Below are positions 7,317-28,606 of a stretch of DNA of 64,000 bases, one piece after another. A program made the position numbers and the translations under genes. The DNA lies in the NCBI RefSeq assembly GCF_000745265.1, contig NZ_JQNN01000001.1, forward strand, positions 5,270,001-5,334,000, read 5' to 3'. The DNA is from Massilia sp. 9096 (lineage in GTDB: Bacteria > Pseudomonadota > Gammaproteobacteria > Burkholderiales > Burkholderiaceae_D). The notes under the pieces are model-generated. The model was not told where the DNA came from, did not search any database, and worked only from the letters and a program-made list of their open reading frames with translations. Each line of letters begins with the position of its first letter. The first letter of the stretch is position 1.

Positions 7317-7333
7317 TGCGCAAATACTGATCT

Positions 7334-7957: not shown

Positions 7958-7996
7958 CATCTCGGCTTTGCGGCGCGGCGACGCGCCGGAAGTGGC

Positions 7997-12193: not shown

Positions 12194-12235
12194 GCGGGGC
12201 TTCCGGAGTGTTTGGAATCTTTCGATTCTAGCGCG

Positions 12236-12727: not shown

Positions 12728-12830
12728 GGGATGTCTCCGGCGTGATGGGTGCGATCACGGTACGCAGGCCGGGCGCGCGTCGCCATCACAATGCGGTGGG
12801 CCGTGCGCGCCATGCGATGAAGCGGTGCCC

Positions 12831-14177: not shown

Positions 14178-14239
14178 ATCGTCTTAGTTGGTTACGTCCT
14201 CCCGGCAAAGGCCGGGCGGCGGAATCTTTATTGTAGCGC

Positions 14240-15145
14240 TCAGCCGGCCGCAGCCATCCCATCCTGCGCCGCCGCCAGCATCGCCTCGACGGCCGGATGC
14301 TGGATCTTGCGGTCGTTCGAGATCATGTAGAACTGTTCGCGCACGCCGGCCGCGACGCCCACCTGCGCCGCGCCGAACTGCTCGGCCACGTCGGGCGCCA
14401 GCGTGGCCGGGGCGAAGAACAGGCCGAGGCCGCGCCGCCCGAAGGTGCTGACCAGTGCATTGTCCTCGAACTCGCCGACCACGTCGGGCCGCACGCCGTG
14501 CTGCACGAACCATTCGTCGATCTTGCCGCGCAGGGCATTATTACGTGTCGGCAGCAGGAACGGCGCGCTGTTCAGGTTGTTCGGGAAGCCTTCGCGGTAA
14601 ACCTCGGCCAGCGCCGGCGCGCCCACCACCACCAGCTCGCTGTCGAACAGGCGGTGGCTGAACACCTTCATCGTGCCGCCCGCACGCACTTCGCGGTCGG
14701 TCAGCACCACGTCCAGCTTGTGCAGGGCGAGGTCGGCCAGCAGCGCCTCGAACTGGTCTTCGTAGCAGACCAGGCGCACCGGACGGTTCATCTGCGTGGC
14801 CGCTTCCAGCATGCGGTAGGCCGACAGCTTGGGCAGCGAATCCGAGATGCCGACCGTCAGGCGCAGGCGCCCGCTGTCGGCCTCGTGCAGCGCTTCCTGC
14901 ATCTGTTCGCCCAGCAGGAAGATCTGGTCGGCGTAGCTCAGCGCCAGGCGCCCGGCCTCGGTCAGCACCAGGCGCCGGCCCTGCTGCGCGAACAGGGTCT
15001 TGCCGAGCGACTGCTCGAGCAGGGTCAGCTGGGCGCTGACGGTCTGCACCGCCAGGCCCAGGCGCTCGGCCGCGCGCGTGATGCCGCCTTCCTTGGCCAC
15101 CACCCAGAAGTAGTACAGATGACGGAAATTGATTTCGTTTTTCAT
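14240..15145 (-). CDS. LysR family regulator, NhaR type
   Basis: A 301-residue LysR-type regulator. An N-terminal winged helix-turn-helix (residues 5-62: FRHLYYFWVVAKEGG, ITRAAERLGLAVQTVSAQL) is followed by a substrate-binding domain. The start phrase MKNEINFRHLYYFW and the body match the NhaR branch, which activates genes in response to sodium or alkaline stress. I use ATG 15145; the frame is open to 15187 but lacks homology there. It is divergent from the DUF475 gene across a 145-base gap, so control of that operon is plausible. Confidence 0.9.
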   Translation of the reverse strand: MKNEINFRHLYYFWVVAKEGGITRAAERLGLAVQTVSAQLTLLEQSLGKTLFAQQGRRLVLTEAGRLALSYADQIFLLGEQMQEALHEADSGRLRLTVGISDSLPKLSAYRMLEAATQMNRPVRLVCYEDQFEALLADLALHKLDVVLTDREVRAGGTMKVFSHRLFDSELVVVGAPALAEVYREGFPNNLNSAPFLLPTRNNALRGKIDEWFVQHGVRPDVVGEFEDNALVSTFGRRGLGLFFAPATLAPDVAEQFGAAQVGVAAGVREQFYMISNDRKIQHPAVEAMLAAAQDGMAAAG

Positions 15146-15290
15146 ACCTGATGTCAAATACTGAGGTTTTACCGAAGTAACTCTCATATTATCTGCGCTT
15201 TTTACTTCAGGCGCACAGCTTTAGACTGCTTCCCTGTCAATCGCGCCATCGTATCGCGCAAAGACTCATATAAATACAGGGGTGCTGCAA

Positions 15291-16361
15291 ATGAAACATT
15301 TTAGAGTGTCGTTCATCGTCACCGCGCTTTGCCTGGCATTGTCGGCCTGGTGGGGCTACGAACACGCGGGCATCGCCGGCGCACTGACCGGCATCGGCGT
15401 CGCCGCCATCCTGGCGGTGATGGAAGTCTCGCTCTCGTTCGACAACGCGGTGGTCAACGCCTCCGTGCTCAAGACTTGGAGCCCGTTCTGGAAGAAGCTG
15501 TTCCTGGGCGTCGGCATCATCATCGCCGTGTTCGGCATGCGCCTGCTGTTCCCGCTGGTGATCGTCGCGGTGGCGGCCGACATCGGCATGATCGACGTCT
15601 GGCACATGGCCTTGCAGGATCCGAAGCAGTACTCGATGCACCTGACCAACCACCACGCTGAAGTGGCGGCGTTCGGCGGCATGTTCCTGCTGCTGGTCTT
15701 CCTCAACTTCCTGTTCGACGACGAGAAGGAACACCACTGGCTCGGCAACGTCGAAGAGAAGTTGGCGTCGTTCGGCAAGACTTCGTCGATCTCGGTGATG
15801 GTCGCGCTGGGCACGCTGATGGCCAGCCTCGGCCTGGTGACCGAAGCGCAGAAGATGGTGGTCCTGATGTCGGGCTTGTGGGGCATCCTGGTCTACGTCG
15901 GCGTCGACGTGCTGTCGAACCTGCTGGAAAAGTCGGAAGCGGGCGCGGAAGGCGTCGGCAACATGGTCGTGAAAGGCGGTATCGGCGGTTTCCTGTACCT
16001 GGAAGTGCTGGATGCGTCGTTCAGCTTCGACGGCGTGATCGGCGCGTTTGCGATCACCAACGACGTCGTGATCATCATGCTGGGCCTGGCGATCGGCGCG
16101 ATGTTCGTGCGCTCGCTGACGGTGTACCTGGTGGAGAAGGGCACGCTCGACCAGTTCGTCTACCTGGAGCACGGCGCGCACTACGCCATCGGCATCCTGG
16201 CCCTGATCATGTTGGCCAGCATGAAGTTCCACGTGCCTGAGCTGGTCACCGGCCTGGCGGGCGTGGCCTTCATCGGCGCCTCGGTCTGGTCGTCGATCCG
16301 GTATCGCAAGAAGCAGGAAGCGCTGGGCGGACATGCCAAGGCCGTCGCCCACGCTGAATGA
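15291..16361 (+). CDS. DUF475 family TerC-like membrane protein
   Basis: A 356-residue polytopic protein (about nine spans) of the DUF475 group, related to TerC. It has the characteristic acidic membrane motif MEVSLSFDNAVVN near residue 45 and a second copy, EVLDASFSFDGVIGA, at about 242, the paired negatively charged motifs expected of a metal-ion transporter. I chose ATG 15291, about eight bases after acagggg; a GTG at 15282 is in frame but overlaps this site. It opens an operon with two TerD proteins and an AIM24-like protein. Confidence 0.92.
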   Translation: MKHFRVSFIVTALCLALSAWWGYEHAGIAGALTGIGVAAILAVMEVSLSFDNAVVNASVLKTWSPFWKKLFLGVGIIIAVFGMRLLFPLVIVAVAADIGMIDVWHMALQDPKQYSMHLTNHHAEVAAFGGMFLLLVFLNFLFDDEKEHHWLGNVEEKLASFGKTSSISVMVALGTLMASLGLVTEAQKMVVLMSGLWGILVYVGVDVLSNLLEKSEAGAEGVGNMVVKGGIGGFLYLEVLDASFSFDGVIGAFAITNDVVIIMLGLAIGAMFVRSLTVYLVEKGTLDQFVYLEHGAHYAIGILALIMLASMKFHVPELVTGLAGVAFIGASVWSSIRYRKKQEALGGHAKAVAHAE

Positions 16362-16436
16362 AGCAGACAATGAAGCAAGCAGTGAAACAAACAAACTCGT
16401 TGTACAACCACGAAGCATCGTAAAAGGAGAATCACC

Positions 16437-17012
16437 ATGGCAATCAGCCTGCAAAAAGGCGGCAACGTCAACCTGTCCAAAGAAGCGCCGGGTCTCACCA
16501 AGCTGCAGGTCGGCCTTGGCTGGGACGTGCGCTCCACCGACGGCGCGGCGTTCGATCTCGACGGCGTCGTGTTCATGCTGAACGCGAGCGGCAAGGTCCG
16601 CGGCGACGGCGACTTCATCTTCTACAACAACCTGCGTTCGACCGACGGTTCGGTCGAGCACTCGGGCGACAACCGCACCGGCGCCGGCGAAGGCGACGAC
16701 GAGACCGTCAACATCGACTTGTCGAAGGTGCCGGCCGACGTCGAGCGCATCGCCTTCGCGGTGACGATCCACGAAGCCGACGCGCGCCGCCAGAACTTCG
16801 GCCAGGTCGCCAAGGCCTTCGTGCGTTGCGTGAACGGCGCCAACGGCAGCGAGATCGCACGCTACGACCTGTCGGAAGATTCGTCGACCGAAGCGGCGAT
16901 GATCTTCGGCGAGGTCTACCGCAACGGCGCCGACTGGAAGTTCCGCGCCGTCGGCCAGGGCTTCCAGGGCGGCCTGGGGCCCCTGGCCAAGAACTACGGC
17001 GTGAACGTCTGA
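16437..17012 (+). CDS. TerD family calcium-binding stress protein
   Basis: A 191-residue TerD/TerZ/CABP-type cytosolic protein. The typical opening [13 protein letters not shown] is followed by LGWDVR, an Asp-rich segment ([10 protein letters not shown]) and the Ca2+-site motif [15 protein letters not shown] near residues 80-95. TerD proteins bind calcium and are linked to tellurite, phage and stress resistance, but their mechanism is unsettled. A strong AAGGAGA lies seven bases before the ATG. It is separated from the DUF475 gene by 75 bases. Confidence 0.95.
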
Positions 17013-17025
17013 GCGAGGAAGCGCG

Positions 17026-17721
17026 ATGCCTAGATTTACTGTGACCGGGGACATCGACCCCTTCCTGCACGTCGCATTGAAGCAGGGCGAAACCATCTAC
17101 TGCGAGTCCGACGCGATGGTGATGATGGAAGCCACGCTCGACCTGAAGGGCAAGATGAAGGGCGGCCTGGGCAGCGCGCTGATGCGCACCTTCGCCAACG
17201 GCGAGTCCTTCTTCCAGCAGCACATCGAGGCCACGCGAGGCGACGGCGATTGCCTGCTGTCGCCCACGCTGCCCGGCGCGATGCAGGTGGTCGACTGTGG
17301 CCCGAGCCAGTACATCATCAGCGACGGCGCGTTCGTCGCGGCCACCAGCGGCATCGATTTGCGCGTGCGCACCCAGAGCCTGGGCAACGCGCTGTTCGCG
17401 CAGAGCGGCGGCTTTTTCGTCACCGAGACGGGCGGCCAGGGCCAGGTCGTGGTGTCCGGCTTCGGCTCGATGCACATGCTGGACGTCGAGCCGGGCAAGG
17501 ACGCGATCATCGACAACGCCCACGTGGTCGCCTGGGACAGCCTGCTCCGCTATGAAATCTCGATCACCACCGGGACCAGCGGCGGCTTCCTGGGCAACCT
17601 GATCAACAGCCAGACCAGCGGCGAAGGCATGGTGCTGCGCTTTTCCGGGCGCGGCAAGGTGTTCGTCTGCTCGCGCAACCGCGACGCCTTCAAGGCCTGG
17701 ATGCAATCGCCGAAGGGCTAA
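17026..17721 (+). CDS. AIM24 / TIGR00266 family protein
   Basis: A 231-residue protein of the AIM24 superfamily, a beta-rich fold without known catalysis. It is Gly-rich and contains MMEATLDLKGKMKGGLGSALMR near the N-terminus and QSGGFFVTETGGQGQVVVSGFG mid-protein, phrases typical of the TIGR00266 group. It lies 13 bases after one TerD gene and 19 bases before the next. Such genes recur in TerD-containing operons, so it probably works with them, though no reaction can be assigned. Confidence 0.9.
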   Translation: MPRFTVTGDIDPFLHVALKQGETIYCESDAMVMMEATLDLKGKMKGGLGSALMRTFANGESFFQQHIEATRGDGDCLLSPTLPGAMQVVDCGPSQYIISDGAFVAATSGIDLRVRTQSLGNALFAQSGGFFVTETGGQGQVVVSGFGSMHMLDVEPGKDAIIDNAHVVAWDSLLRYEISITTGTSGGFLGNLINSQTSGEGMVLRFSGRGKVFVCSRNRDAFKAWMQSPKG

Positions 17722-17740
17722 TTTTTAGGAGTACATCATC

Positions 17741-18325
17741 ATGGCAGTCAATCTCACCAAAGGGCAGAAGATCTCGCTCGAGAAGGAAGCCGGCGGCGCG
17801 CTGTCGCGCGTCACCATGGGCCTGGGCTGGGACGTCGCGCAGAAGCGCGGCTTCCTCGGTTTTGGCGGCGGCAAGGGCGATTCGATCGACCTGGACGCGT
17901 CCTGCGTGCTGTTCGACGACAGCAACCGCCCGGTCGATGTGGTCTGGTTCCGCCAGCTGAAAAGCCGTGACGGCAGCATCACGCACACCGGCGACAACCG
18001 CACCGGCGCCGGCGATGGCGACGACGAGCAGATCGTCGTCGAACTGAATCGCGTGCCGGAGCACGTCAAGTCGCTGGTGTTCACGGTGAACAGCTTCACC
18101 GGCCAGAACTTCGCGCAGGTGGCGAACGCTTTCTGCCGCCTGGTCGATACCGCTTCCAAGCGCGAAGTCGCGCGCTACGATTTGTCGGTGCAGAGTTCGC
18201 ACACGGCCCAGATCATGGCCAAGCTGTACCGCCATAACGGCGAATGGAAGATGCACGCGATCGGCGAGAACGGCAGCGGCCGCACCATCGACGAGCTGCT
18301 GCCGCAGATCCTGCCGCACCTGTGA
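17741..18325 (+). CDS. TerD family protein (second copy)
   Basis: A 194-residue TerD-family protein that closes the operon. It opens VNLTKGQKISLEKEAGG and has an insertion rich in Gly and Lys around residues 40-48 (GFLGFGGGKGD) that the first copy lacks. It keeps [15 protein letters not shown], the predicted calcium-binding loop, at about residues 83-97. The two TerD copies differ enough by eye to be distinct paralogues and not a recent duplication. AGGAG lies ahead of the ATG, and a strong terminator follows 29 bases after the stop. Confidence 0.95.
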   Translation: MAVNLTKGQKISLEKEAGGALSRVTMGLGWDVAQKRGFLGFGGGKGDSIDLDASCVLFDDSNRPVDVVWFRQLKSRDGSITHTGDNRTGAGDGDDEQIVVELNRVPEHVKSLVFTVNSFTGQNFAQVANAFCRLVDTASKREVARYDLSVQSSHTAQIMAKLYRHNGEWKMHAIGENGSGRTIDELLPQILPHL

Positions 18326-18353
18326 CTGCAGACGCAGATATTTTCAGCTTTCT

Positions 18354-18383
18354 AAAAAGCGCCTTTCAAAAGGCGCTTTTTTT
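18354..18383 (+). terminator. Rho-independent terminator after the TerD operon
   Basis: A stem of aaaaagcgcc and ggcgcttttt encloses a short tttcaaaa loop and runs into seven T residues. It separates the TerD operon from the peptide island that follows. Confidence 0.93.
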
Positions 18384-18746
18384 ATTTGGTGATGGGACGA
18401 CAAACGCGTTCCTCTGGCGTGGGCGGTCTGATTCCTCTTGCGGGCAAAACTTCTTTTTAGTTAGAATTTGATAGATTTTGCTAAAATGGATTATAACTTA
18501 ATTAATTATTGCGTCGAAAAATTCACTGTTTTTGCTATGTAGTAAAGCAAATCTCACTACTTGTCACTTAAGAAAATACTATTTATAAATAGATACATTT
18601 TTTTCTTGACTGCTTCAGTTTTTGCGTCAATACTCCATTCACTTCGGTGCGTCACGGTTTAAATCGCACTGCGGTGCAGACTGAATGGATGAAAGATTCG
18701 TCTATTTATTTGCTAGTTCTTAACAATCAAAGCAAACGGAGTTGGA
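18384..18746. other. A+T-rich intergenic region ahead of the peptide genes
   Basis: About 360 bases without a convincing gene. Composition shifts abruptly to A+T-rich after about 18460, marking the left edge of the island. It contains a sigma70-like promoter (18606-18634) and inverted repeats in the presumed leader: tccattca (18634-18641) with tgaatgga (18682-18689), and gtgcg (18647-18651) with cgcac (18665-18669). A competing small hairpin, gcac-tgcg-gtgc, lies at 18666-18677. The longest plus-strand frame here overlaps the first peptide gene in another frame and looks like noise. Confidence 0.6.
18606..18634 (+). promoter_or_regulatory. Candidate sigma70 promoter for the peptide operon
   Basis: TTGACT (18606-18611), a 17-base spacer and AATACT (18629-18634) resemble -35 and -10 hexamers. 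It would give a leader of about 105 bases before the first peptide gene. Confidence 0.5.
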
Positions 18747-18884
18747 ATGCAAGAGCTGAATCTGCAGGAAATCGAAGAGATTTCCGGTGCCGGTATCATG
18801 TATTACGTTGGCTACGCGATCGGATATGTGATTTCCGCGAGTCGAGTTGCTGATGACGAGTGGGCATGGTCGGGTGGCGGTTGA
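18747..18884 (+). CDS. Double-glycine-type precursor peptide 1, putative bacteriocin/microcin
   Basis: A 45-residue peptide too short for ordinary gene callers. The first 15 residues, MQELNLQEIEEISGA, have the double-glycine-type leader pattern (hydrophobic residues at -4, -7 and -12 with EI and EEIS) and end in Gly-Ala, a cleavage variant also used by microcins E492 and H47. The predicted mature part is 30 residues. It starts GIMYYV, carries a GxxxG helix-packing motif (Gly22-Y-A-I-Gly26), then an acidic stretch (DDE), two Trp and a Gly-rich end. ATG 18747 follows cggagttgga. The C39 exporter at 21055 is the expected processing enzyme. It could instead be a secreted signal peptide. Confidence 0.75.
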   Translation: MQELNLQEIEEISGAGIMYYVGYAIGYVISASRVADDEWAWSGGG

Positions 18885-18937
18885 TACCGCTCCCTTTTAT
18901 GTCGGAAATTTTAGTTTTTAATAAAAAGGGAAGTTAA

Positions 18938-19075
18938 ATGCAAGAAATGACAATGCAGGAAATGGATGAGGTCTCCGGTGCTTTAGGTCCGAAAGATCTG
19001 GTTTGGGTGGCTGACCAAATTACCGATTTCGTTCGCGGTTTTAGTGCTGGCTGGGATGCTGGCGCTCAGAAGTAA
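18938..19075 (+). CDS. Double-glycine-type precursor peptide 2, putative bacteriocin/microcin
   Basis: A second 45-residue precursor, 53 bases after peptide 1 and preceded by aaaagggaag. Its leader MQEMTMQEMDEVSGA is also 15 residues long, ends in Gly-Ala and shares the MQE...QE..E.SGA frame with peptide 1. The predicted 30-residue mature part starts LGPKDLVWV. It has overlapping GxxxG motifs at Gly34, Gly38 and Gly42 on one helix face and two Trp, and ends AQK. Paired peptides with GxxxG are the hallmark of two-peptide (class IIb) bacteriocins. The stop is TAA at 19073-19075. Confidence 0.75.
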   Translation: MQEMTMQEMDEVSGALGPKDLVWVADQITDFVRGFSAGWDAGAQK

Positions 19076-19091
19076 TAATTTTGAGTAGAAG

Positions 19092-19112
19092 AGCCCGGCC
19101 TTGTGCCGGGTT
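19092..19112 (+). terminator. GC hairpin between the peptide genes and the export genes
   Basis: agcccggc, loop cttgt, then gccgggtt form a compact stem in otherwise A+T-rich sequence, 17 bases after the peptide 2 stop. No T-run follows directly, so it is more likely a partial terminator or RNA-stabilising stem than a full stop. It would favour peptide mRNA over the downstream genes. Confidence 0.45.
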
Positions 19113-19580
19113 GATCGCAATTTGGAAAATTTTTTCTTCCGTTTACATCAGAAAAGCCGGCCGCTCTTCTTTATTTTGCTGCTGCTTGCATCAACAATTC
19201 CATTTGTTGCATCGTACTTATTTCCTGACGACAGGCCAGGCTTAATTGACCAGTTGGGTTATATAAAATATTTTCTTGCACTTGTTTATGCTCCTTTATT
19301 TGAGACGCTGATATTGCAACATATACCAGTACGATTTTGTGCTCGGAAAGGTTTAGTGGGTTGGCGTTGTATGGCTATCGTGATCGCTCCGTTCGTATTG
19401 GCACATATTTCGCTATCCTTCAGCCCGTTACCTTTATTAAATGGATTATCTGGTGGGACTGTTTTAGGTATATGTTATCTGACATGCTCCAAGTTGTCAT
19501 GGCGCTATGCGTTCGCAATAACAGCTGCGCTTCATTTTTTTCATAATATTATTGCGTTAATTCTGGCAAGTTTCTTTTAA
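19101..19580 (+). CDS. CPBP (Abi)-like membrane protein, possible immunity protein
   Basis: An up to 159-residue, strongly hydrophobic protein with about four or five spans. Three segments match CPBP/Abi intramembrane protease motifs: APLFETLILQ (usually APxxEExxFR), FVLAH (FxxxH) and HFFHN (HxxxN). The second Glu and the Arg of motif 1 are Thr and Gln here, so protease activity is doubtful. CPBP proteins in bacteriocin loci often give self-immunity. The start is uncertain: no early ATG exists, and TTG at 19101 (inside the hairpin loop) or TTG at 19122 are the options. A+T-rich codons set it apart from the flanking genome. Confidence 0.7.
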   Translation: MCRVDRNLENFFFRLHQKSRPLFFILLLLASTIPFVASYLFPDDRPGLIDQLGYIKYFLALVYAPLFETLILQHIPVRFCARKGLVGWRCMAIVIAPFVLAHISLSFSPLPLLNGLSGGTVLGICYLTCSKLSWRYAFAITAALHFFHNIIALILASFF

Positions 19581-19667
19581 ATTAAGCAATCTGGCGAGGC
19601 AGAAATAGATGGATCCATTCCTGGATGGCGACCATCTTTTCGTAAGTATCAGTCGGCAAGAAGTTGA

Positions 19668-20990
19668 TTGTTTTTTGTGTACAAGGTTGACCTTCAAGTG
19701 ACGAGCTTTCCCCCCCGTGTTTCCTCCAGTTCCCGTCCCCTGTTTCGGAAACAAGCCGTTGAGCGCGCAGGTATTCGCCAGTATGGATCCGTGAGCCTTG
19801 CGCAGCCGGTGAGCTTCCGAGTGCTGACGTGGCTGTTTGTCGCAATCGCCGTAAGCATTGTGGCATTCTTCTATAGTTTTTCTACTACCAGAAAAGCCCA
19901 GTGCCAAGGTGTTCTGCTGCCTTCTGCAGGTGTCATTAGAATCGTTCCGATACAGACTGGTACCGTCAAGTTCAGACGGGTAAAGGAAGGTCAGCATATT
20001 TCAGCTGGAGATGTATTGTTCGTGTTAAGTAGCGATCGCAGCGCGGCGGCTGGCGATGCCCAAAAGACGATTTCGGCCTTGCTCAAGACCCGTCGTGACA
20101 GCTACCGCGACGAGCTAAAGCAGCTGGAAATGCAGGCATACCAACGTGCGGATGCATTACGCAAGAAAATGACCGACATAACCTCGGACTTGGATAGACT
20201 CAACGAGCAGATTGCACTCCAGAAACAGCGTGTGGTACTCTCAGAACAGTCGTGGCAGCGCTACAGCGATTTGCAGGCATCTCACTATATTTCTTCAGCC
20301 CAGGCCCAGGATAAGCAGGCAGAGTTGCTGGACCAACGCCAACGCTTGAGTGACTTTTTCCGTACTAAAACCGCCACTCAGCGAGACTTCGACGCAGCGA
20401 ATGCCGAATTGCGTGATCTGAATATCCAATCCAAACGTGATGCGGCTGCACTACAGCGCAATATTTCAACTGTTGCACAAGACTTGACCGATAGCGAAGC
20501 GCGTCGCGAGATTTTGATTCGCAGTCCCCAGTCCGGTGTAGTTACGGCCATTACTGCGGAAGAGGGGCAAACTGTGTCGAGCGGCCAGGCTATTGCGTCC
20601 GTATTGCCCTTGGATGCTGCCTTGGAGGCGGAGATCTACGCGCCGTCGCGCTCTATAGGATTCGTCAAGCCCGGCATGCAGGTATTGCTGCGTTACCAAG
20701 CCTATCCTTATCAAAAGTTTGGGCAGCATACCGCCATCATCACCGAGGTCGCAAATACGTCATTGCGTCCAGACGAGATGGCTCTTCCTGGAGCGACCCT
20801 GCCAAGCGGTAGCGTGGCCGAACCCTTGTATCGGATCCGTTTGAAGCTAAACAAGCAAACGATAAAGGCATACGGCCAGGAAATGCCACTCAGGTCGGGA
20901 ATGCTGGTGGATGCAAGCGTTTTGTTAGAGCGTCGCCACCTGTACGAATGGGTCCTTGAGCCGATATTCAGTATCTCTGGACGTATGTAA
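19668..20990 (+). CDS. HlyD-family periplasmic adaptor (CvaA-like)
   Basis: A membrane fusion protein of up to 440 residues that would link an inner-membrane ABC exporter to an outer-membrane channel. The N-terminal LFRKQAVE phrase before a single span (about residues 52-72) is typical of CvaA-type adaptors. A lipoyl/barrel half-motif (GVIRIVPIQTGTVKFRRVKEGQHISAGDVLFVL), a long coiled-coil hairpin (about 125-275) and the second lipoyl half (IRSPQSGVVTAITAEEGQTVSSGQ) follow. The start may be TTG 19668, GTG 19677 or GTG 19698. No outer-membrane partner gene is nearby, so a TolC encoded elsewhere is assumed. Confidence 0.92.
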   Translation: MFFVYKVDLQVTSFPPRVSSSSRPLFRKQAVERAGIRQYGSVSLAQPVSFRVLTWLFVAIAVSIVAFFYSFSTTRKAQCQGVLLPSAGVIRIVPIQTGTVKFRRVKEGQHISAGDVLFVLSSDRSAAAGDAQKTISALLKTRRDSYRDELKQLEMQAYQRADALRKKMTDITSDLDRLNEQIALQKQRVVLSEQSWQRYSDLQASHYISSAQAQDKQAELLDQRQRLSDFFRTKTATQRDFDAANAELRDLNIQSKRDAAALQRNISTVAQDLTDSEARREILIRSPQSGVVTAITAEEGQTVSSGQAIASVLPLDAALEAEIYAPSRSIGFVKPGMQVLLRYQAYPYQKFGQHTAIITEVANTSLRPDEMALPGATLPSGSVAEPLYRIRLKLNKQTIKAYGQEMPLRSGMLVDASVLLERRHLYEWVLEPIFSISGRM

Positions 20991-21054
20991 TTTTTTTACT
21001 GAATCTGCCTAGCTCTGGCAACACGCCGAAATACATTTTTTTTGTAAAAGACCA

Positions 21055-23196
21055 ATGAAATTTCAAGCTTCGCCTCATCTAACTTTCTGGCGCTCCAATC
21101 GTTTGCCAGTATTGCTTCAGACCGAGGCAGCCGAATGCGGCTTGGCCTGTCTCAGCATGGTTGCCAGTTATTGGGGGCACCAAATCGATATTGCCAACAT
21201 GCGCAGAAGATATTCGGTTTCTCTCAAGGGGGTCACACTAAAAAGTATCATCGCTATGGCGCAGGGCTTATCGCTGAGCACACGTCCGTTGAAGCTGGAC
21301 ATGCAGCATCTACCAGACCTCAAGTTGCCATGCGTCTTGCACTGGGATCTCAACCATTTCGTTGTCTTGAAATCGGTGTCGGCAAATAATGCTATCATCC
21401 ATGATCCAGCAGTTGGCGAGCGTAAACTTCTGCTGGATGATTTTGCAAATCATTTCACTGGCGTCGCACTTGAGCTATCGCCAACGGGCGCTTTTAAGAA
21501 ACAACAGGAGACCGCAAAATTTTCCATGCGGTCGCTTATGGGTCGAGTTGCCGGCCTGCGGCAGGGCTTGGGTCAGATTCTGCTTTTAGGTCTGGCGCTG
21601 CAGATCTGTCTATTAGTGGCCCCTTTTTACCTGCAATGGATTGCCGACGAAGCCCTAGTGACATCCGACCGCGATCTTGTTACCGTACTCGGACTGGGTT
21701 TTTTGGCCTTGGTGACTGTGCAGACGGCAATCGGCGCCGTGCGCTCGTGGGTGACGACTATTTTGTCCACTAGTCTGAACTTTCAGTGGTTCGGAAATGC
21801 CTTCACTCACTTAATGAAACTTCCGCTGTCTTACTTCGCAAATCGGCATAGCGGCGATATAGTTTCACGCTTTAGTTCTATCCAGACCATTCAACGTGGA
21901 ATCACCACGCAATTCATCGAAGGCGTGATAGACGGCGTGTTGGCAGTTGGAACGCTAGGCATGATGCTTTTTTATAGCGTAAAATTGGCGAGTGTCGCCT
22001 GTGCTGCGATTGGATTGTACGTCTTATTGCGCTGGTTGATTTTTCGGTCTTTGCGTGCAGCTACTGCCGAGCAGATCATCCATGCGGCTAAGCAACAGAC
22101 CCACTTCCTTGAATCCGTGCGAGGAGTGCAAAGCGTGCGCCTGTTCGACCGCGCTGAAGAACGGCGTGCTGGCTGGATGAATATCCTCGCCGATCAGTTC
22201 AATGCCGATCTGCACATTTCGAAATTGGCAGTTTCATACCAGACAGCAAACACATTTTTGATTAGTGCAGAGCGAATCATCGTCATCTGGCTCGCTGCAC
22301 TCGCCGTACTGGACAATCAGTTTTCTGTCGGGATGTTATTTGCTTTTATCAGCTATAAAGACCAGTTCAGCCAGCGGACAGCGAGCCTCGTTGATAAGTT
22401 GTTTGAGTTTCGCATGATGAAGCTGCACGGCGAGCGCCTCGCAGATATTCTAATGACCGAACCTGAACAGGATGTCCAAGATGCAGAAATCGACATGGAA
22501 GGGATTACTCCTTCCATCGAATTCCGAAATGTATCGTTCCGGTACGCCGATGGTGAACCCTACGTGCTCAAGCAGCTCAATCTTACTATTCCGGCTGGAC
22601 AGTCCATTGCAATCACGGGACATTCAGGTTGTGGCAAAACTACCCTCATGAAGTTGCTGCTGGGATTGGTTGAGCCCAGTGAAGGAAATATCTTGATTGG
22701 CGGAATCGAGATCGGACATCTCGGATTGTCGAACTATCGCAAAATGATCGGTACGGTAATGCAGGACGACGCCTTGTTTTCAGGGTCGGTCGGTGACAAC
22801 ATCTGCTTTTTTGACCCGTCCCGCAACCAAGCCGGTATTGAGGCATGCGCCCAGCTTGCTTCAGTACATGCTGATATCGTCATGATGCCAATGGGGTACA
22901 ACACGCTGATCGGTGATATCGGTTCTGGCTTGTCGGGAGGTCAGATGCAGCGCGTTCTACTTGCGCGAGCACTATATAGAAAACCCAAGCTACTTGTCCT
23001 CGATGAAGCAACAAGTCATCTAGACATACACAATGAACAAGCAGTTAACACGGCGATCAAGCAGTTGCCTTTAACCCGCATCATAGTGGCCCATCGGCCC
23101 GAAACGATTGCCATGGCTCAGCGCGTTATTGTCTTACACCAAGGCGCAGTGATGCAGGACACCGTTTTGCTAAAGCAGGCTCCGGTTACAGCATGA
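21055..23196 (+). CDS. C39 peptidase-containing ABC exporter (CvaB/PCAT type)
   Basis: A 713-residue bifunctional bacteriocin exporter. The N-terminal C39 peptidase has Gln22, nucleophile Cys28 (QTEAAECGLACL), His101 (LNHFVVL) and Asp117 (HDPAVG), all intact. A membrane domain of about six spans follows (about 170-440). The ATPase domain has Walker A GHSGCGKTT, signature LSGGQ, Walker B LLVLDEATSHLD and the switch His (AHRPE). Such proteins cut double-glycine leaders while exporting the peptide, matching the two precursors upstream. It lies 64 bases after the adaptor gene. Base composition is island-like, not that of the flanks. Confidence 0.95.
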   Translation: MKFQASPHLTFWRSNRLPVLLQTEAAECGLACLSMVASYWGHQIDIANMRRRYSVSLKGVTLKSIIAMAQGLSLSTRPLKLDMQHLPDLKLPCVLHWDLNHFVVLKSVSANNAIIHDPAVGERKLLLDDFANHFTGVALELSPTGAFKKQQETAKFSMRSLMGRVAGLRQGLGQILLLGLALQICLLVAPFYLQWIADEALVTSDRDLVTVLGLGFLALVTVQTAIGAVRSWVTTILSTSLNFQWFGNAFTHLMKLPLSYFANRHSGDIVSRFSSIQTIQRGITTQFIEGVIDGVLAVGTLGMMLFYSVKLASVACAAIGLYVLLRWLIFRSLRAATAEQIIHAAKQQTHFLESVRGVQSVRLFDRAEERRAGWMNILADQFNADLHISKLAVSYQTANTFLISAERIIVIWLAALAVLDNQFSVGMLFAFISYKDQFSQRTASLVDKLFEFRMMKLHGERLADILMTEPEQDVQDAEIDMEGITPSIEFRNVSFRYADGEPYVLKQLNLTIPAGQSIAITGHSGCGKTTLMKLLLGLVEPSEGNILIGGIEIGHLGLSNYRKMIGTVMQDDALFSGSVGDNICFFDPSRNQAGIEACAQLASVHADIVMMPMGYNTLIGDIGSGLSGGQMQRVLLARALYRKPKLLVLDEATSHLDIHNEQAVNTAIKQLPLTRIIVAHRPETIAMAQRVIVLHQGAVMQDTVLLKQAPVTA

Positions 23197-23246
23197 ATTG
23201 AGTCCTGAGCCGGTCGGGTGCCGCCGCTGCTTGCTTCAATGCCCAC

Positions 23247-24992
23247 TCAGTACCCCTTCTTCTGCACCAGCGCCGTCCCGGTGCCATGCCGCTTGCCTTC
23301 GCTGACCGCCGTCACCGTGCCGTCCGGGTTGAACACGATGGCGTTCGCCGCGCCGATCTCTTCCGGGCTGACCGTCCACTTGTGCCCAAACGCTTCCAGC
23401 GCCTTGGCTTGCGCGCTGCCGGTGAAGCCGGCTTCGACCTCGGTCGCGGCCTCGTTGCGCTCGGACAGGCGCGGCGCGTCGATCGCCTCGTTCATCGGCA
23501 TGCCGAAGTCGAGGTAGTTGACGATGGTCTGCAGCACGGTCGTGATGATGGTCGCGCCGCCCGGGCTGCCGATGGTGAAGGCCGGCTTGCCGTCCTTGAA
23601 GGCGATGGTCGGCGCCATCGACGAGCGCGGGCGCTTGCCGGCTTCCGGAATGTTGGGGGCCGGGCCGCTGAAGTCGAAGTCGGTCATCTCGTTATTCAGC
23701 AGGAAGCCGTAGCCCGGCACCACGATCCCGCTGCCGCCCCAGGATTCGATGGTGAAGGTGTACGACACGATATTGCCTTCCTTGTCCGACACCGTCAGGT
23801 GGGTCGTGTGCACGCCCTCGCGCATGATCTGGTTCTGCATCGGGCGCAGCGGGAAGCTCTGGTCGTTCTCGTATAAAAAGGCGTCGCCGGCCGGGACGAT
23901 CTTGGGCGCGGCGCGGTTCGGGTTGATCAGCGAGCGGCGCTGGGCCGCGAACTGCTTCGACAGGATGCCGTCGACCGGCGCGTCGACGTATTCCGGGTCG
24001 CCGAGGAAGGCGTTGCGGTCGGCAAAAGCGAGGCGGCTGGCTTCCAGGTAGAGGTGCTCGGCATTCGCGCGCGGCATCGACTTCAGGTCGTAGCCCTCGA
24101 GGATGTTGAGCGCTTCTGCCACCGTCACGCCGCCGCTGCTGGGCTGCGCCATGCCGTACAAATCGTAGCCGCGGTAGGTCGAATGCACCGGCTGGCGGAT
24201 GCGCACCTCGTAGTTGGACAGGTCGGCCAGCGTCATGCCGCCGGCGCGCACCGAGGCGCCCGCGACCAGCGGTGGGCGGTTGACCGCGTCGACCACGGCC
24301 TGCGCCATCGGGCCTTCATAAAACGCCTTGTAGCCGCGCGTGGCCAGTTCGCGGTAGGCCTTGGCCAGGTCCGGATTCCTGACGATCGTCCCGACCGGGA
24401 GCGCCCGGCCATTCTTGAGATACAGCTGGCTGGTGCTGCCGAACAGGCTGAACTTCTTTTCGTTCTCGACCATCAGGCCGTGCAGCGTCGGCGTGACCGG
24501 ATAGCCCTTGGTCGCGACCTGAATGGCCGGCGCCAGCACCTGCTTGAACGACATCGTGCCGTAGCGCTCGAGCGCCTCGTGCCAGCCGCGCACCGTGCCC
24601 GGCACGCCCACCGACGCGCCGCTGGCGACCGCGGTGTCGAAGTCGATCGGCTTGCCGTTTTCCTGGAACACGGCCGGCGTGAACGAATTCGGCGCGGTCT
24701 CGCGGTGGTCGATCGTGACCACGCGCTTGTCCTTGGCCAGGTAGATCACCATGAAGCCGCCGCCGCCGATGCCGCAGCTGAACGGATCGGTGACGCCCAG
24801 CGTCGCGGCCGCCGCCACGGTGGCGTCGATGGCGTTGCCGCCCTTGTTGAGGATGGCGAGCGCCGATTGCGAGGCCTTTTCGCTGATGGTGGCGACGGCG
24901 CCGCCGGTGCCGGTGGCGACCGGCGGCGCGGCGAAGGCGGCGGGGCACGCCAGCGCGATCGCCAGCAGCAGGGGTTTGACGTGGGTGGTCAT
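23247..24992 (-). CDS. ggt: Gamma-glutamyltransferase
   Basis: A 581-residue periplasmic gamma-glutamyltranspeptidase. It hydrolyses or transfers the gamma-glutamyl group of glutathione and matures by self-cleavage into two subunits. A Sec signal peptide (LLLAIALACPAAFA) is present. The autoprocessing/nucleophile Thr is in VHTTHLTV (about Thr396), with the oxyanion segment PGGATI and substrate-binding motif PRSSMAPTI downstream. I use ATG 24992, which begins the signal peptide and overlaps the stop of the upstream lipoprotein gene by ATGA. The frame stays open much further upstream without meaning. Confidence 0.95.
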   Translation of the reverse strand: MTTHVKPLLLAIALACPAAFAAPPVATGTGGAVATISEKASQSALAILNKGGNAIDATVAAAATLGVTDPFSCGIGGGGFMVIYLAKDKRVVTIDHRETAPNSFTPAVFQENGKPIDFDTAVASGASVGVPGTVRGWHEALERYGTMSFKQVLAPAIQVATKGYPVTPTLHGLMVENEKKFSLFGSTSQLYLKNGRALPVGTIVRNPDLAKAYRELATRGYKAFYEGPMAQAVVDAVNRPPLVAGASVRAGGMTLADLSNYEVRIRQPVHSTYRGYDLYGMAQPSSGGVTVAEALNILEGYDLKSMPRANAEHLYLEASRLAFADRNAFLGDPEYVDAPVDGILSKQFAAQRRSLINPNRAAPKIVPAGDAFLYENDQSFPLRPMQNQIMREGVHTTHLTVSDKEGNIVSYTFTIESWGGSGIVVPGYGFLLNNEMTDFDFSGPAPNIPEAGKRPRSSMAPTIAFKDGKPAFTIGSPGGATIITTVLQTIVNYLDFGMPMNEAIDAPRLSERNEAATEVEAGFTGSAQAKALEAFGHKWTVSPEEIGAANAIVFNPDGTVTAVSEGKRHGTGTALVQKKGY

Positions 24993-25468
24993 GGTCGGGG
25001 TGGTGTGGAAGTGAAAGGGACAGTGGACGCGGAAGCCGGCGCGCCGGCCTGGCTGATCCTGAGCGTGACGGCCAGCGGGTCGGCCGCGTGCGCGCCTGCG
25101 CCCGCGCGCGCGGGCGGGAGCGCGCGCACGTCGAGCGACACGCGCGCGCCGTGCAGCGCGTTGGGCGCCGCCACGGCCTGGTCGGGACCGAGGCTGAACT
25201 CTTCGCGCCCGCCCGGGCCATCGACGATGAAGCGCAGGATCAGCCGTCCGGCCCAGATGCACTGGGTGTTGGCCGGGCAGCGGCTGTCGCTGAAGCTGTC
25301 GTAGGTGAGCGTGGTGCCCGGCGCCAGGGTCACGCTCTGTTCGGGCTGGAGCGGATAGACGCCGTCGCGGATCGGGTTGACCGCGCAGCCGCCCAGGGCG
25401 ACACCGGCTGCCATGGTGAAGGCGGCCGCGATGGCAAGGGGACGAGGCGGGAACCGCGATGGCATCAT
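24989..25468 (-). CDS. Small lipoprotein with RCPxxxxCIWAG motif
   Basis: A roughly 159-residue lipoprotein. The signal peptide has lipobox LGGC (VALGGCAVNP), and the mature part is beta-rich with a Cys pair in DSRCPANTQCIWAGR, a motif seen in uncharacterised lipoproteins. The last 40 residues are Pro/Ala-rich. Start choice is uncertain: adjacent Met codons at 25468 and 25465 begin the signal peptide, and the frame is open to 25564, but no clear ribosome-binding site distinguishes them. The stop overlaps the ggt start (ATGA), so the two are probably translated together. No function can be assigned. Confidence 0.75.
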   Translation of the reverse strand: MMPSRFPPRPLAIAAAFTMAAGVALGGCAVNPIRDGVYPLQPEQSVTLAPGTTLTYDSFSDSRCPANTQCIWAGRLILRFIVDGPGGREEFSLGPDQAVAAPNALHGARVSLDVRALPPARAGAGAHAADPLAVTLRISQAGAPASASTVPFTSTPPRP

Positions 25469-25581
25469 GGAGCATTCGGACATTTGCATTAAGCAAATAG
25501 TATCAAAACGCGACGCCTGCACAATTCGCGCTCCGGATGGCGTATCCTGTTGAGCACTTGTCAACTCACCAGGAGACCCGG

Positions 25582-26469
25582 ATGACGCGCTTGACCTCCG
25601 AGGATTTCGATCCCGAAGTCCTGAAACTGTTCGACGGCTACGTCCACGGACGCCTGTCGCGGCGCGACTTCCTGTCCCGCGCCGGCCGCTATGCCGTGGG
25701 CGGCGCGAGCGCGGCCACGCTGCTGGCGCAATTGTCGCCGTCGTTCGCCGCGCCGGTGGTGGCGCCGTCGGATGCGCGCTTGACCACGCGTTACCAGGAA
25801 TTCCCGTCGCCGCAAGGCTACGGCAAGCTGCGCGGCTACCTGGCGATGCCGGCCAGCGCCAAGGGCAAGCTGCCGGCGATCCTGGTGGTGCACGAGAACC
25901 GCGGCCTGAACCCGCACATCGAGGACATCGCGCGCCGCCTGGCGCTGGACGGCTTCATCGCGTTCGCGCCGGACGCGCTGTTCCCGCTCGGCGGCTACCC
26001 CGGCGACGAGGACAAGGCGCGCGAGCTGTTCCCCAAGCTCGACCAGGCCAAGACGCGCGCCGATTTCGTCGCCGCGGCCCAGCTGCTCAAGACGCTGCCG
26101 CAGGCGAATGGCAAGGTCGGGGTGGTGGGCTTTTGCTACGGCGGCGGCATCGCCAACTATCTCGCCACGCAATTGCCGGATCTGGGCGCGGCGGTGGCCT
26201 TTTACGGCATGCAGCCGGCAGCGGCCGAGGTGGCGCACATCCACGCGCCGCTGCAGTTGCACGACGCCGGCAAGGACGAGCGCATCCTGGCCGGCTGGCC
26301 GGCGTACGAGGCCGCGCTCAAGGCCAACCACGTCGACTACCAGCATTTCGTCTACGCCGACGCGCAGCACGGTTTCAACAACGACACCACCCCGCGCTTC
26401 GACGAAGCGGCGGCCAAGCTGGCGTGGAGCCGCACGGTTGCGTTCTTCAAGGACAAGCTGGGCAGCTGA
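25582..26469 (+). CDS. TAT-exported dienelactone hydrolase family protein
   Basis: A 295-residue alpha/beta hydrolase of the dienelactone hydrolase family (YghX-like). A twin-arginine signal (RLSRRDFLSRAGRYAVGG) covers about residues 30-48, predicting folded export. The catalytic triad is visible as Cys185 in GFCYGGG, an Asp in HDAGKDER and a His in AQHGFNND, with the family Glu in HENRGLN. I start at ATG 25582, seven bases after AGGAG; an in-frame upstream ATG at 25537 lacks such a site. The natural substrate is unknown. Confidence 0.92.
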   Translation: MTRLTSEDFDPEVLKLFDGYVHGRLSRRDFLSRAGRYAVGGASAATLLAQLSPSFAAPVVAPSDARLTTRYQEFPSPQGYGKLRGYLAMPASAKGKLPAILVVHENRGLNPHIEDIARRLALDGFIAFAPDALFPLGGYPGDEDKARELFPKLDQAKTRADFVAAAQLLKTLPQANGKVGVVGFCYGGGIANYLATQLPDLGAAVAFYGMQPAAAEVAHIHAPLQLHDAGKDERILAGWPAYEAALKANHVDYQHFVYADAQHGFNNDTTPRFDEAAAKLAWSRTVAFFKDKLGS

Positions 26470-26672
26470 GCCGGCGGGCATGCATGCCGGCCTCGGAAGT
26501 CGAGCGATACTGCAACTGCAGCTGCAGCGCACGCGGCGCTGGCGCACATCAGCGCGGTATTGCGCCCGGCGCGCGGCGAATCATCGGGCGTGAAAACCCG
26601 GGTCGCATGCACCATCGTGCCTACGGGCTGGAGGAAAGACGTCGATCGATCGCCGGATCGGTGCACCGAAAG

Positions 26673-26699
26673 AAAAGGCGCCCCGGAGGCGCCTTTTTT
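26673..26699 (+). terminator. Rho-independent terminator
   Basis: aaaaggcgcc, loop ccgga, ggcgcctttt plus a six-T run. It lies about 200 bases after the hydrolase stop. The 26470-26672 stretch before it holds no gene that I can support. Confidence 0.88.
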
Positions 26700-26724
26700 C
26701 GTGTTGCGCTAAATCAGAGGCGAA

Positions 26725-26894
26725 TCACGCGCGGCTGACACCGTCCACGAAGCCTTGGGTAAAGTCGTTCAAGCCTGCGCCGAGCCACATCATAAGCGCC
26801 GCCGCCAGCAGCAGGTTGCGGTTGGTCTTGCGATAGCCCACCGCCAGCAGCACCAAACCGATGATTTCGATCAGATAGAAAGAAAGTGTGTCAT
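26725..26894 (-). pseudogene. Small membrane-protein frame without a usable in-frame start
   Basis: On the minus strand a clean frame reads IEIIGLVLLAVGYRK, then NLLLAAALMMWLGAGL, and ends at TGA 26725-26727, the look of a roughly 55-residue two-span protein. No ATG is in frame. An ATG at 26894 would fit if one extra base followed it, since inserting a G there gives MDTLSFYLIE and then the visible frame. As it stands, that ATG meets a stop after seven codons. Either a one-base deletion broke the gene, or translation begins at CTG 26874 or TTG 26856. The product is unrecognised. Confidence 0.35.
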
Positions 26895-26979
26895 GTACGT
26901 CGACTTGTGATTGATGAGTCCGCTAGGGTATCAGATCGGCAAGCTCGTAAATACGCATATTGTCACTGCATAAGTGACC

Positions 26980-27004
26980 AAAAAAAAGCGCCCGAAGGCG
27001 CTTT
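26980..27004 (-). terminator. Terminator of rpoH
   Basis: Read on the minus strand, aaagcgcc, loop ttcg, ggcgcttt is followed by eight T residues. It lies 20 bases downstream of the rpoH stop. A second perfect 6-base inverted repeat (gtcact/agtgac, 26962-26978) lies just beyond. Confidence 0.92.
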
Positions 27005-27024
27005 CCTGATGCTGCGGTAAGGAA

Positions 27025-27921
27025 TCAGACGTAAGCGGCCAGCGCCGTTTTCATCTTTTTCAGTGCTGCGGTTTCGATCTGGCGGATACGCTCTGCCGAC
27101 ACGCCGAACTCCTCGGCCAGCGTGTGCAGCGTGGCGCCCGAGCCGTCGTCGTTGGCCAGCCAGCGCGCTTCCACGATGCGGCGCGAGCGCGGGTCCAGCT
27201 TGCCCAGGGCCGTTTCCAGGCCTTCCGACTGCAGGCGCACCACTTCTTCGGCTTCCAGCACCTTGGTCGGTTCCTGCTGGTCCGACGACAGGTAAGCGAT
27301 CGGCGAGAACTTGTCGTCTTCGTCGTCGGTCGGCGCTTCCAGCGCGATGTCGCGGCCCGACAGGCGCGTTTCCATCTCGATCACTTCTTCGCGCTTGACG
27401 TCGAGCATCTTGGCCAGGTCGTCGACTTGCTGCGGCGACATAGCGTCCAGGCCCTGCTTGTTGCTGCGCAGGTTGAAGAACAGTTTGCGCTGGGCTTTGG
27501 TCGTCGCGACCTTGACCAGACGCCAGTTCTTCAAGATGTATTCGTGCATCTCGGCCTTGATCCAGTGCATCGCGTAGGACACCAGGCGTACGCCCTGGTT
27601 CGGGTCGAAGCGCTTGACTGCCTTCATCAGGCCGATGTTGCCTTCCTGGATCAGGTCGGCGTGCGGCAGGCCATAGCCCAGGTAGCCGCGTGCGATCGAC
27701 ACCACCAGGCGCAGGTGGGACATCACCATCTTTTGCGCGGCGTCCAGATCGTTGTCGTCGCGCAGCCGCTTCGCCAGCGAGATCTCTTCCTCGTGGGTCA
27801 GCATCGGCAGGCGGTTCACCGCGGAGATATAAGCGTCGATATTGCCGAGATTGCCGTTGAAACCCAGTCCAAGAGCACGGCTGCCGGTAGGTACCAATGC
27901 GGATTGTGCGGACATGTTCAC
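27025..27921 (-). CDS. rpoH: RNA polymerase heat-shock sigma factor (sigma-32)
   Basis: A 298-residue sigma-32 directing transcription of chaperone and protease genes. Region 2 contains HLRLVVSIARGYLGYGLPHADLIQEGNIGLMKAVKRFD, including the core-binding and -10 recognition parts. The RpoH box QRKLFFNLR distinguishes it from other sigma factors, and region 4 ends with LAEEFGVSAERIRQIETAALKKMK. It is monocistronic, with a terminator 20 bases downstream. A CIRCE operator lies about 120 bases upstream of the start, which predicts additional HrcA control. Confidence 0.98.
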   Translation of the reverse strand: MNMSAQSALVPTGSRALGLGFNGNLGNIDAYISAVNRLPMLTHEEEISLAKRLRDDNDLDAAQKMVMSHLRLVVSIARGYLGYGLPHADLIQEGNIGLMKAVKRFDPNQGVRLVSYAMHWIKAEMHEYILKNWRLVKVATTKAQRKLFFNLRSNKQGLDAMSPQQVDDLAKMLDVKREEVIEMETRLSGRDIALEAPTDDEDDKFSPIAYLSSDQQEPTKVLEAEEVVRLQSEGLETALGKLDPRSRRIVEARWLANDDGSGATLHTLAEEFGVSAERIRQIETAALKKMKTALAAYV

Positions 27922-28039
27922 TCCCTCGTAAAAAGCTGCTGCATCGTCAATGCCATAAAGGCTGCCCCGGAGGCGCGGCGATTATGGGATGCGGACGGGA
28001 TGCTTTCAATAGCCAAACCCGTCGTGTACGGACAAGATA

Positions 28040-28066
28040 TTAGCACTCTCTTGAGGTGAGTGCTAG
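28040..28066. promoter_or_regulatory. CIRCE operator (HrcA-binding site) upstream of rpoH
   Basis: TTAGCACTC (28040-28048), nine bases, GAGTGCTAG (28058-28066). This matches the established CIRCE consensus TTAGCACTC-N9-GAGTGCTAA at 17 of 18 arm positions. On the minus strand the distal arm runs into taatat, a plausible -10 element, so HrcA would block the rpoH promoter. Confidence 0.9.
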
Positions 28067-28606
28067 CCGCCACCATATTTCCGCTGACGTCCTTAAGTTT
28101 CGTTAAAGTGTTGCTTACAGGAATCGAAAACGGATCGGTTCAACTGTAGAGGTGGCACTGTGATGCAGCTGATTTAAATCAAACGCGGGGCTTGAAACGT
28201 TTGAAATCGGTAGAAGATAGGTTATGCCTGCAAGTTACAGAGGTCTGTGAACTGGCGCACCTAGACATGTAGGCCGATGCCTTGCGTCCGCCGTGGACTT
28301 GACTGGCGAACAGCGGAAGAGTTCACAAAAACACAAGGCGTTCCAAGGTCCGAGTTCATTGCGGACACCGGCAATCTGCTCCATGACGTTCCTCGGCGCG
28401 ATGCGCCGATTCCCCCTCGGCACCGACGACAACGCCCCCCAAGACGCGGGTTTCCTTATTGCTGCGCTGCGGCAGCCGGACGCGCGAGATTCCATGCCTA
28501 TGCTACGTTCATGATCCAGGCAGGCCACCGGGACGGTATGCGCAACGTATTTACCAGAGGTTTGGCCTGCGGAATTCAAAGCACATCATCGTGAAGGAAT
28601 AATGCA
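28067..28606. other. Intergenic region between rpoH and the aldehyde dehydrogenase
   Basis: About 540 bases without a supportable gene on either strand. Short open frames on both strands lack ribosome-binding sites and recognisable products. It contains the FNR-like palindrome at 28169-28182 and must carry the promoters of both flanking divergent genes. Confidence 0.6.
28169..28182. promoter_or_regulatory. FNR/Anr-like palindrome
   Basis: CTGATTTAAATCAA matches TTGAT-N4-ATCAA at nine of ten arm positions. It lies 425 bases before the dehydrogenase start and about 250 before rpoH. Regulation by an oxygen-sensing CRP/FNR protein is possible but unproven. Confidence 0.35.

Follow-up and report, generated by a model that had tools for sequence, protein, structure and literature searches.

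Two-peptide bacteriocins are best known from Gram-positive bacteria, and lactococcin G, one of their number, uses an exporter with a C39 peptidase. Lactococcin G, enterocin 1071 and enterocin C, the class IIb group that targets BacA/UppP, are each encoded by two adjacent small genes with leaders of the double-glycine (GG) type. Excerpts of a 2025 paper (PMC12765074) count just four homologous bacteriocins of the lactococcin G type, and report for enterocin C, a lactococcin G homologue, that the GxxxG parts of both peptides interact in the membrane. Here we describe a five-gene cassette with two peptide genes so arranged in Massilia sp. 9096, within a stretch of 64,000 nucleotides (contig NZ_JQNN01000001.1, positions 5,270,001 to 5,334,000) that we call the window. 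We consider it probable that this chromosomal cassette makes a secreted two-peptide bacteriocin of the lactococcin G type, with a CPBP-like membrane protein as its immunity factor. That reading is built on what can be seen in the sequence, namely the leaders, the exporter residues, the gene order, the pairing in relatives and a subunit-specific resemblance. The genes, in window coordinates, are:

18747-18884, + strand: peptide A precursor, 45 amino acids; leader 18747-18791 ending in GA; core GIMYYVGYAIGYVISASRVADDEWAWSGGG
18938-19075, + strand: peptide B precursor, 45 amino acids; leader 18938-18982 ending in GA; core LGPKDLVWVADQITDFVRGFSAGWDAGAQK
19101-19580, + strand: CPBP/Abi-like membrane protein, putative immunity protein; start uncertain, TTG at 19101 or in-frame TTG at 19122
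19668-20990, + strand: HlyD-type membrane fusion protein; first start TTG at 19668, with an in-frame GTG at 19698 as alternative
21055-23196, + strand: C39 peptidase-containing ATP-binding cassette (ABC) exporter, with Cys28, His101 and Asp117

A sequence-only reading of the window had described two adjacent 45-codon genes with 15-residue leaders ending in Gly-Ala, followed on the same strand by CPBP-like, HlyD and C39-ABC genes in an A+T-rich island. All five genes were found where it placed them on the + strand, their frames are open, and the five-gene cassette is confirmed as described. The exporter triad said to be intact is present and aligns with the Cys, His and Asp residues in the solved structure of an "ABC-type bacteriocin transporter" (8vp3), and Pfam recognised HlyD_3 (E 1.8e-17), Peptidase_C39 (1.2e-35), ABC_membrane (2e-32) and ABC_tran (7.3e-32). 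The island is also real: measured in 500-base steps over 12000-29999, the G+C fraction is 0.40-0.54 at 18500-22999 and 0.54-0.71 in the remainder. The description of the system as self-contained held for all parts but one, as an outer-membrane channel would be encoded elsewhere in the genome, where 24 PF02321 domain matches are candidates for a TolC-like channel, none of them within the window's operon.

The leaders, MQELNLQEIEEISGA for A and MQEMTMQEMDEVSGA for B, score 45.1 and 32.8 against a matrix of 29 other leader sequences from which the window's own had been left out, and the next-best stretch on either strand of the 64 kb scores 18.7. A reversed-sequence null, run with a 32-sequence matrix that did include the window's own leaders, gave a best score of 10.9 in 2.27 Mb (both strands counted).

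Peptide A has two relatives among 5.8 billion proteins, P0002 (Undibacterium sp. SXout11W) and P0003, which are 60% identical to it, carry the identical ten-residue tail DDEWAWSGGG and keep G22 and G26. At E<=1 a profile of seven A-type peptides matched nine proteins, one of them from the window; the four named matches come from Undibacterium sp. SXout11W, Undibacterium sp. CY7W, an unclassified Janthinobacterium and Janthinobacterium svalbardensis. Since the A peptides of two relative loci, L107 and L123, are identical to P0005 (Undibacterium sp. CY7W) and P0006 (Janthinobacterium) respectively, the family to which the window's host belongs holds both genera; these belong to the Oxalobacteraceae, Betaproteobacteria (NCBI taxonomy), in line with the betaproteobacterial host that had been proposed. 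In three relative loci an A-type and a B-type gene stand together with a membrane protein gene:

L107: A at 6000-6149, B at 6164-6307, CPBP-like gene at 6413-6916; exporter genes divergent
L123: genes ordered as in the window, A and B being followed by a membrane protein of 115 residues, then HlyD and ABC
L113: B, A, CPBP-like gene; no exporter within the 13 kb taken

L119 is possibly a further locus of this kind. It holds another pair at 6298-6622, the first member of which is similar to the B-type peptides in L107 and L113, while the second (SFWGRVGAWLHEF...) has P0007 and P0010 as relatives. Wider profile searches were sparing: a profile of window A, P0002 and P0003 matched 174 of 392 family genomes at E<=1, many through the leader only, and fell below 1e-4 in two genomes only, that of the window (1.3e-27) and that of L107 (G198, 3.4e-8). 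Of 349 genomes from the order, 12 (that of the window among them) matched the B-type profile at E<=0.01, and 13 of the 20 matches lay within model positions 1-30 of 48. The tail motif DEWAWSGG was also sought as DNA in the genome contigs, and all 9 matches proved unrelated once translated.

Core A contains one GxxxG motif (G22xxxG26) and core B two; the A-type spacing is retained in 5 of 7 rows of the alignment, with extra residues between the glycines in L113 and L119. Over 24 cores from 12 pairs, some of them related, we counted 28 GxxxG motifs where 2000 shuffles gave 10.9 (standard deviation 2.9). Other glycine spacings were raised in the same cores, spacing 6 (19 against 10.1) and, slightly, spacing 2 (16 against 11.6). 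The pairs were drawn from a table of 17 rows, of which five (two further L107 rows, L120 and two L164 rows) were left out as repeats or as not comprising two different cores.

The resemblance to lactococcin G was approached in two ways. With full precursors, the NCBIfam lactococcin G families (NF038034/NF038035, curated cut-off 37 bits) were matched on the alpha side by P0002 (E 2.1e-4, 21.3 bits) and P0003 (E 0.032), and on the beta side by window B (E 0.018, 15.2 bits), L107 B (5e-4, 20.2 bits) and L123 B (0.013); neither family was matched by the full L107 A, L123 A, L113 A, L113 B, L119 or third L107 peptide. Once the leaders were removed, 3 of 10 A/B cores still matched, each solely its own subunit family (P0002 E 0.0033, window B 0.11, L107 B 0.0097), and as a control none of 10 cores from other pair loci matched lactococcin G, three of them having weak matches to other families. 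Lactococcin G itself, its sequences verified in the Protein Data Bank (PDB), served for shuffle tests. With p values uncorrected for the number of tests, and with P0002 and P0003 counted although near-copies, A cores gave, against the alpha subunit, p of 0.052 for the window, 0.021 for P0002, 0.041 for P0003, 0.45 for L107, 0.002 for L123 and <0.0005 for L113. Four of these six are thus below 0.05, and none of the six is so against the beta subunit (all >0.06). Against the beta subunit the B cores gave 0.002 (window), 0.049 (L107), 0.032 (L123), 0.39 (L113), 0.26 (L119) and 0.91 (third L107 peptide), that is 3 of 6 below 0.05, with none of 6 against the alpha subunit (all >0.1). These comparisons weakly suggest that the A-type cores are alpha-like and the B-type cores beta-like in a subunit-specific manner. 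In the alignment, RGFSAG of B falls onto KGFGKG, the G18xxxG22 of lactococcin G-beta.

With 25.0, L123 B scores above the cut-off (21.5) of TIGR03949, the family of lactobin A/cerein 7B (class IIb), and L123 A met the Pfam alpha/beta enterocin family at E 0.24 only. Weak matches confined to the leader linked window B with the lacticin 481 lantibiotics (E 0.19) and L113 A with a target family of ATP-grasp ribosomally synthesised and post-translationally modified peptides (RiPPs; E 0.0098). L119 weakly matched XyeA (E 0.039) and SLATT_1 (E 0.079), as the third L107 peptide did BlpC (E 0.13). Pfam holds no family for peptide A or B, and PDB sequence searches returned no bacteriocin match for either. 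A modified RiPP or nitrile hydratase leader peptide (NHLP) system would have a modification enzyme beside the precursors, and Pfam showed none among the three large operon genes and six neighbours. Taken with the A/B pairs in two other genera, the GxxxG excess over shuffles and the membrane protein gene 3' of the pair in three related loci, the subunit-specific likeness supports the earlier interpretation of a two-peptide, C39-exported, microcin-like system.

That a CPBP-like protein encoded after the peptides should be the immunity factor is plausible, although its motif 1 is degenerate. We relied for the Abi motifs, and for the immunity role of CPBP/Abi proteins, on excerpts of PMC6957408. 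Motif 2, FxxxH, is kept as FVLAH at 98-102 and the motif 3 histidine as H145, with N149 also present, and PLFETLI[LF]Q is common to the window and L107 proteins. Against a gathering cut-off of 22.4 bits for the CPBP domain PF02517, the L107 protein scores 31.5 (above) and that of L113 12.7 (below); the 115-residue membrane protein of L123 has no Pfam match. By shuffling, similarity is found between the window and L113 proteins (z 6.9) and between those of L107 and L113 (z 8.3), with z 1.8 (p 0.064) for the window and L107. A structure prediction of the window's CPBP-like protein from 3 sequences gave a mean pLDDT of 54.1 and a pTM of 0.40.

Were the cassette to work as we suppose, A (alpha-like) and B (beta-like) would be synthesised with GG-type leaders, the C39 domain of the exporter would cleave after Gly-Ala, and the ABC/HlyD pair would export the 30-residue cores, presumably via a TolC-like channel encoded elsewhere. 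Once in the inner membrane of a susceptible neighbouring cell, the two cores might form a helix pair by way of their GxxxG motifs and render that membrane permeable. A receptor or an uptake route may be what the conserved A tail DDEWAWSGGG recognises, and the CPBP-like protein would protect the producer.

The exporter itself has a single full-length match in its own genome, namely itself; the 64 others start at residue 152 or later and hence are without the peptidase part. At E<=1e-150 it is matched in 52 of 195 family genomes and in 27 of 62 genus genomes (own included). We scanned 81 loci (80 relative stretches and the window), 70 of which contain the exporter. The sequence-only reading had named random sequence at the peptide positions of exporter-keeping relatives as evidence against itself; instead, 44 of the 70 loci, the window included, hold a leader open reading frame (ORF) scoring at least 20, the other 26 speaking for neither side, and 10 of the 70 have an adjacent pair by our rule, although these are not unbiased frequencies as some loci were picked by leader matches (L107-L126, L172 and L173 were chosen through the leader search). 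One of the ten pair loci, L164, consists of near-identical repeats, and the remaining nine, the window included, have different peptides. The cargo varies while the exporter is kept, as leader peptides beside related exporters demonstrate; for instance, the exporter closest to the window's, in L154 (77% ABC identity), is accompanied by one unrelated leader peptide in the 16 kb taken. This suggests that many leader peptides of these genera await description, served by related exporters with differing cargo.

Several of the loci deserve mention in their own right. In L109, L110, L111 and L112, from the genus (g6) to which the Janthinobacterium locus L123 also belongs, arrays of 6-8 tiny leader genes of 27-39 codons, set around an exporter 73-74% identical to the window's, encode cores like LMPESSVGG followed by a variable tail; in L110, the one array inspected more closely, a protein kinase-TPR gene (PF00069, 158.1 bits) adjoins it. 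The layout recurs in L045, where eight tiny leader genes (7418-8687 and 12687-12990) with cores like PEVDVESG and a Gly-rich tail lie near a C39 exporter and an HlyD gene, with a protein kinase-TPR gene (PF00069, 177.6 bits) also close by. In L049-L054, exporters 53-55% identical to the window's stand beside leader peptides whose cores contain Cys and whose tails are rich in Pro. In L107, 3' of the A-B-CPBP cassette, three more leader peptides, of different types (6980-7719), are followed by a fourth (8177-8323) and then by a gene for a DUF3267 putative zincin peptidase (region to 8954). The exporter gene of L171 (G291:C1:351000-367000) is in two adjoining pieces and L125 (G375:C24:124000-138000) has a second, partial exporter match; these are apparently broken or duplicated copies.

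The setting of the cassette comprises the following:

Upstream neighbours: a DUF475/TerC-like gene, two TerD genes and an AIM24 gene
18354-18381, + strand: terminator-like hairpin 3' of the TerD gene, of little weight, as hairpins of this class are not above shuffles (7 observed, 6.2 in shuffles)
18606-18634, + strand: promoter-like site TTGACT-17-AATACT, 5' of the peptide genes, a consensus match only and of little weight
Downstream neighbours: a gamma-glutamyltranspeptidase gene (opposite strand) and a dienelactone hydrolase family gene

The island lies between TerD (the gene at 17741) and the gamma-glutamyltranspeptidase gene, in an interval of 18322-23250. At the thresholds set, and with the own genome included, these flanking genes were matched in 60 and 61 of the 62 genus genomes respectively, and they are convergent in all 57 genomes that have both on one contig. 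The distance between them ranges over those 57 from 146 to 39,899 bp (4,927 bp in the window), two congeners having just 146 and 242 bp. Positions were compared for eleven other genomes of the genus with a close exporter: all keep both flanking genes on one contig, the exporter being on a different contig in 8 of them and at least about 44 kb from TerD in the other 3. From these distances and positions we conclude that the cassette lies in a variable interval and that the exporter stands elsewhere in these relatives; the interval is a candidate insertion spot.

How far should the bacteriocin reading be trusted? Several observations weigh against it. Every match to lactococcin G is below the curated cut-off, window A matches no NCBIfam family with its leader on or off, and its C-terminus has no counterpart in lactococcin G-alpha. 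Peptide B was its own sole match in the protein search, the A tail motif was absent from all 77 loci collected ahead of the DNA scan, and 26 of the 70 exporter-bearing loci have no leader ORF scoring at least 20 in the stretch taken. The CPBP domain of the window protein scores 17.3 bits (E 0.0057), below the gathering cut-off, and its motif 1 (EExxxR) is replaced by ETLILQ (E68-T69...Q73 instead of EE...R), a correction to the sequence-only reading. Of 48 core comparisons with plantaricins E, F, J and K, 8 gave p<0.05, the best including window A with PlnK (0.002), window B with PlnF (0.001) and L113 A with PlnE (0.003); the resemblance is therefore not confined to lactococcin G. We nevertheless give lactococcin G more weight because 7 of 12 own-subunit comparisons pass, against 0 of 12 with the other subunit. 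The mature peptides, finally, are slightly acidic (net charge A -2, B -1).

That acidity would also suit a quite unlikely alternative, in which A and B act within the population that makes them, as signals or autolysis factors. Pheromones occur among GG peptides. The Neisseria Nap peptides, which are betaproteobacterial, have GG motifs, a C39 peptidase and a LagC-like NapI, and yet cause autolysis without inhibition of competitors (excerpts of PMC11798529), which likewise counts against a bacteriocin. However, Pfam shows no sensor or regulator among the five genes, the cargo differs between exporter-keeping relatives as is usual for bacteriocins, and the GxxxG motifs and the resemblance to lactococcin G speak against such a role. 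It is rather unlikely, for its part, that A and B are two independent single-peptide class II microcins that share one exporter, their pairing being without functional meaning. Such exporters do adjoin many unrelated leader peptides, single ones included (as in L154), and just one immunity candidate was seen in the window; but L107, L113 and L123, and possibly L119, each hold A-type together with B-type peptides, several of these peptides are like the corresponding lactococcin G subunit, and one membrane protein gene lies 3' of the pair in those first three loci. The small size of the ORFs, and B being without a database relative, might even hint at a decaying or misread locus with chance or remnant ORFs, which we regard as very improbable given five open frames, leader scores of 45 and 33 (own leaders left out) against 18.7 for the next best, a conserved A tail and intact exporter residues.

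A bolder version of the bacteriocin reading would have A and B as true lactococcin G homologues that crossed to or from Gram-negatives and hit neighbouring betaproteobacteria at the inner membrane via BacA/UppP or another receptor, with entry guided by DDEWAWSGGG and immunity conferred by binding of a disabled-protease CPBP protein. We hold this to be unlikely. The Massilia genome has one BacA gene, but a BacA target is not predicted from the sequence because window A is without a C-terminus of the lactococcin-G/enterocin-C kind.

If the secreted two-peptide bacteriocin is nonetheless what the cassette makes, such pairs in Oxalobacteraceae, with their type I exporter, would pose the question of how a two-part membrane permeabiliser gets past the outer membrane. 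They would also provide alpha/beta-like pairs that differ naturally in their tails, usable to probe receptor choice. In the literature searched, from which subscription journals were largely absent, we found no account of such pairs with a type I exporter in Gram-negatives, and no paper with the phrase "two-peptide microcin" or similar; a term search in PMC13174018 gave no match, nor was there a paper on Janthinobacterium, Massilia or Undibacterium bacteriocins among the matches listed, judged by titles and the beginnings of abstracts.

Set beside described systems, the cassette shares different parts with each. With the Neisseria nap island, as excerpted from PMC11798529, it has in common a betaproteobacterial host, several GG peptides and a C39 peptidase, and NapI of that island is similar to LagC; the nap peptides differ in being cationic, in causing autolysis rather than antagonism and in their FapF-related export channel. 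The two-protein, contact-dependent Caulobacter CdzCD system likewise has two small GxxxG proteins, type I secretion and a small membrane immunity protein, but CdzCD has RTX-like secretion signal regions and is cell-associated, with CdzC aggregating, whereas the window has GG-type leaders and 30-residue cores (excerpts of PMC5380434). Class II microcins (MccV/CvaAB) share the GG/GA leader, a C39 ABC protein with Cys/His/Asp, the fusion protein and a small membrane protein, according to excerpts of PMC9746304, the main text of which does not contain the term "two-peptide"; the window differs in encoding side by side an alpha-type and a beta-type core, each of 30 residues. As with the CPBP/Abi immunity proteins in excerpts of PMC6957408, a membrane protein with FxxxH and a C-terminal His is encoded 3' of the peptide pair; the difference is that ETLI[LF]Q replaces motif 1 in the window and L107. 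From the lactococcin G group the window is set apart by its Gram-negative host, its HlyD partner and a CPBP-like neighbour rather than a LagC-type immunity protein, and from enterocin C by the acidic, Trp-rich tail of A, where the C-terminal halves of enterocin C dock in BacA (excerpts of PMC12765074). It is nonetheless with this group that the A-type peptides align with alpha and the B-type with beta, at scores below the family cut-offs.

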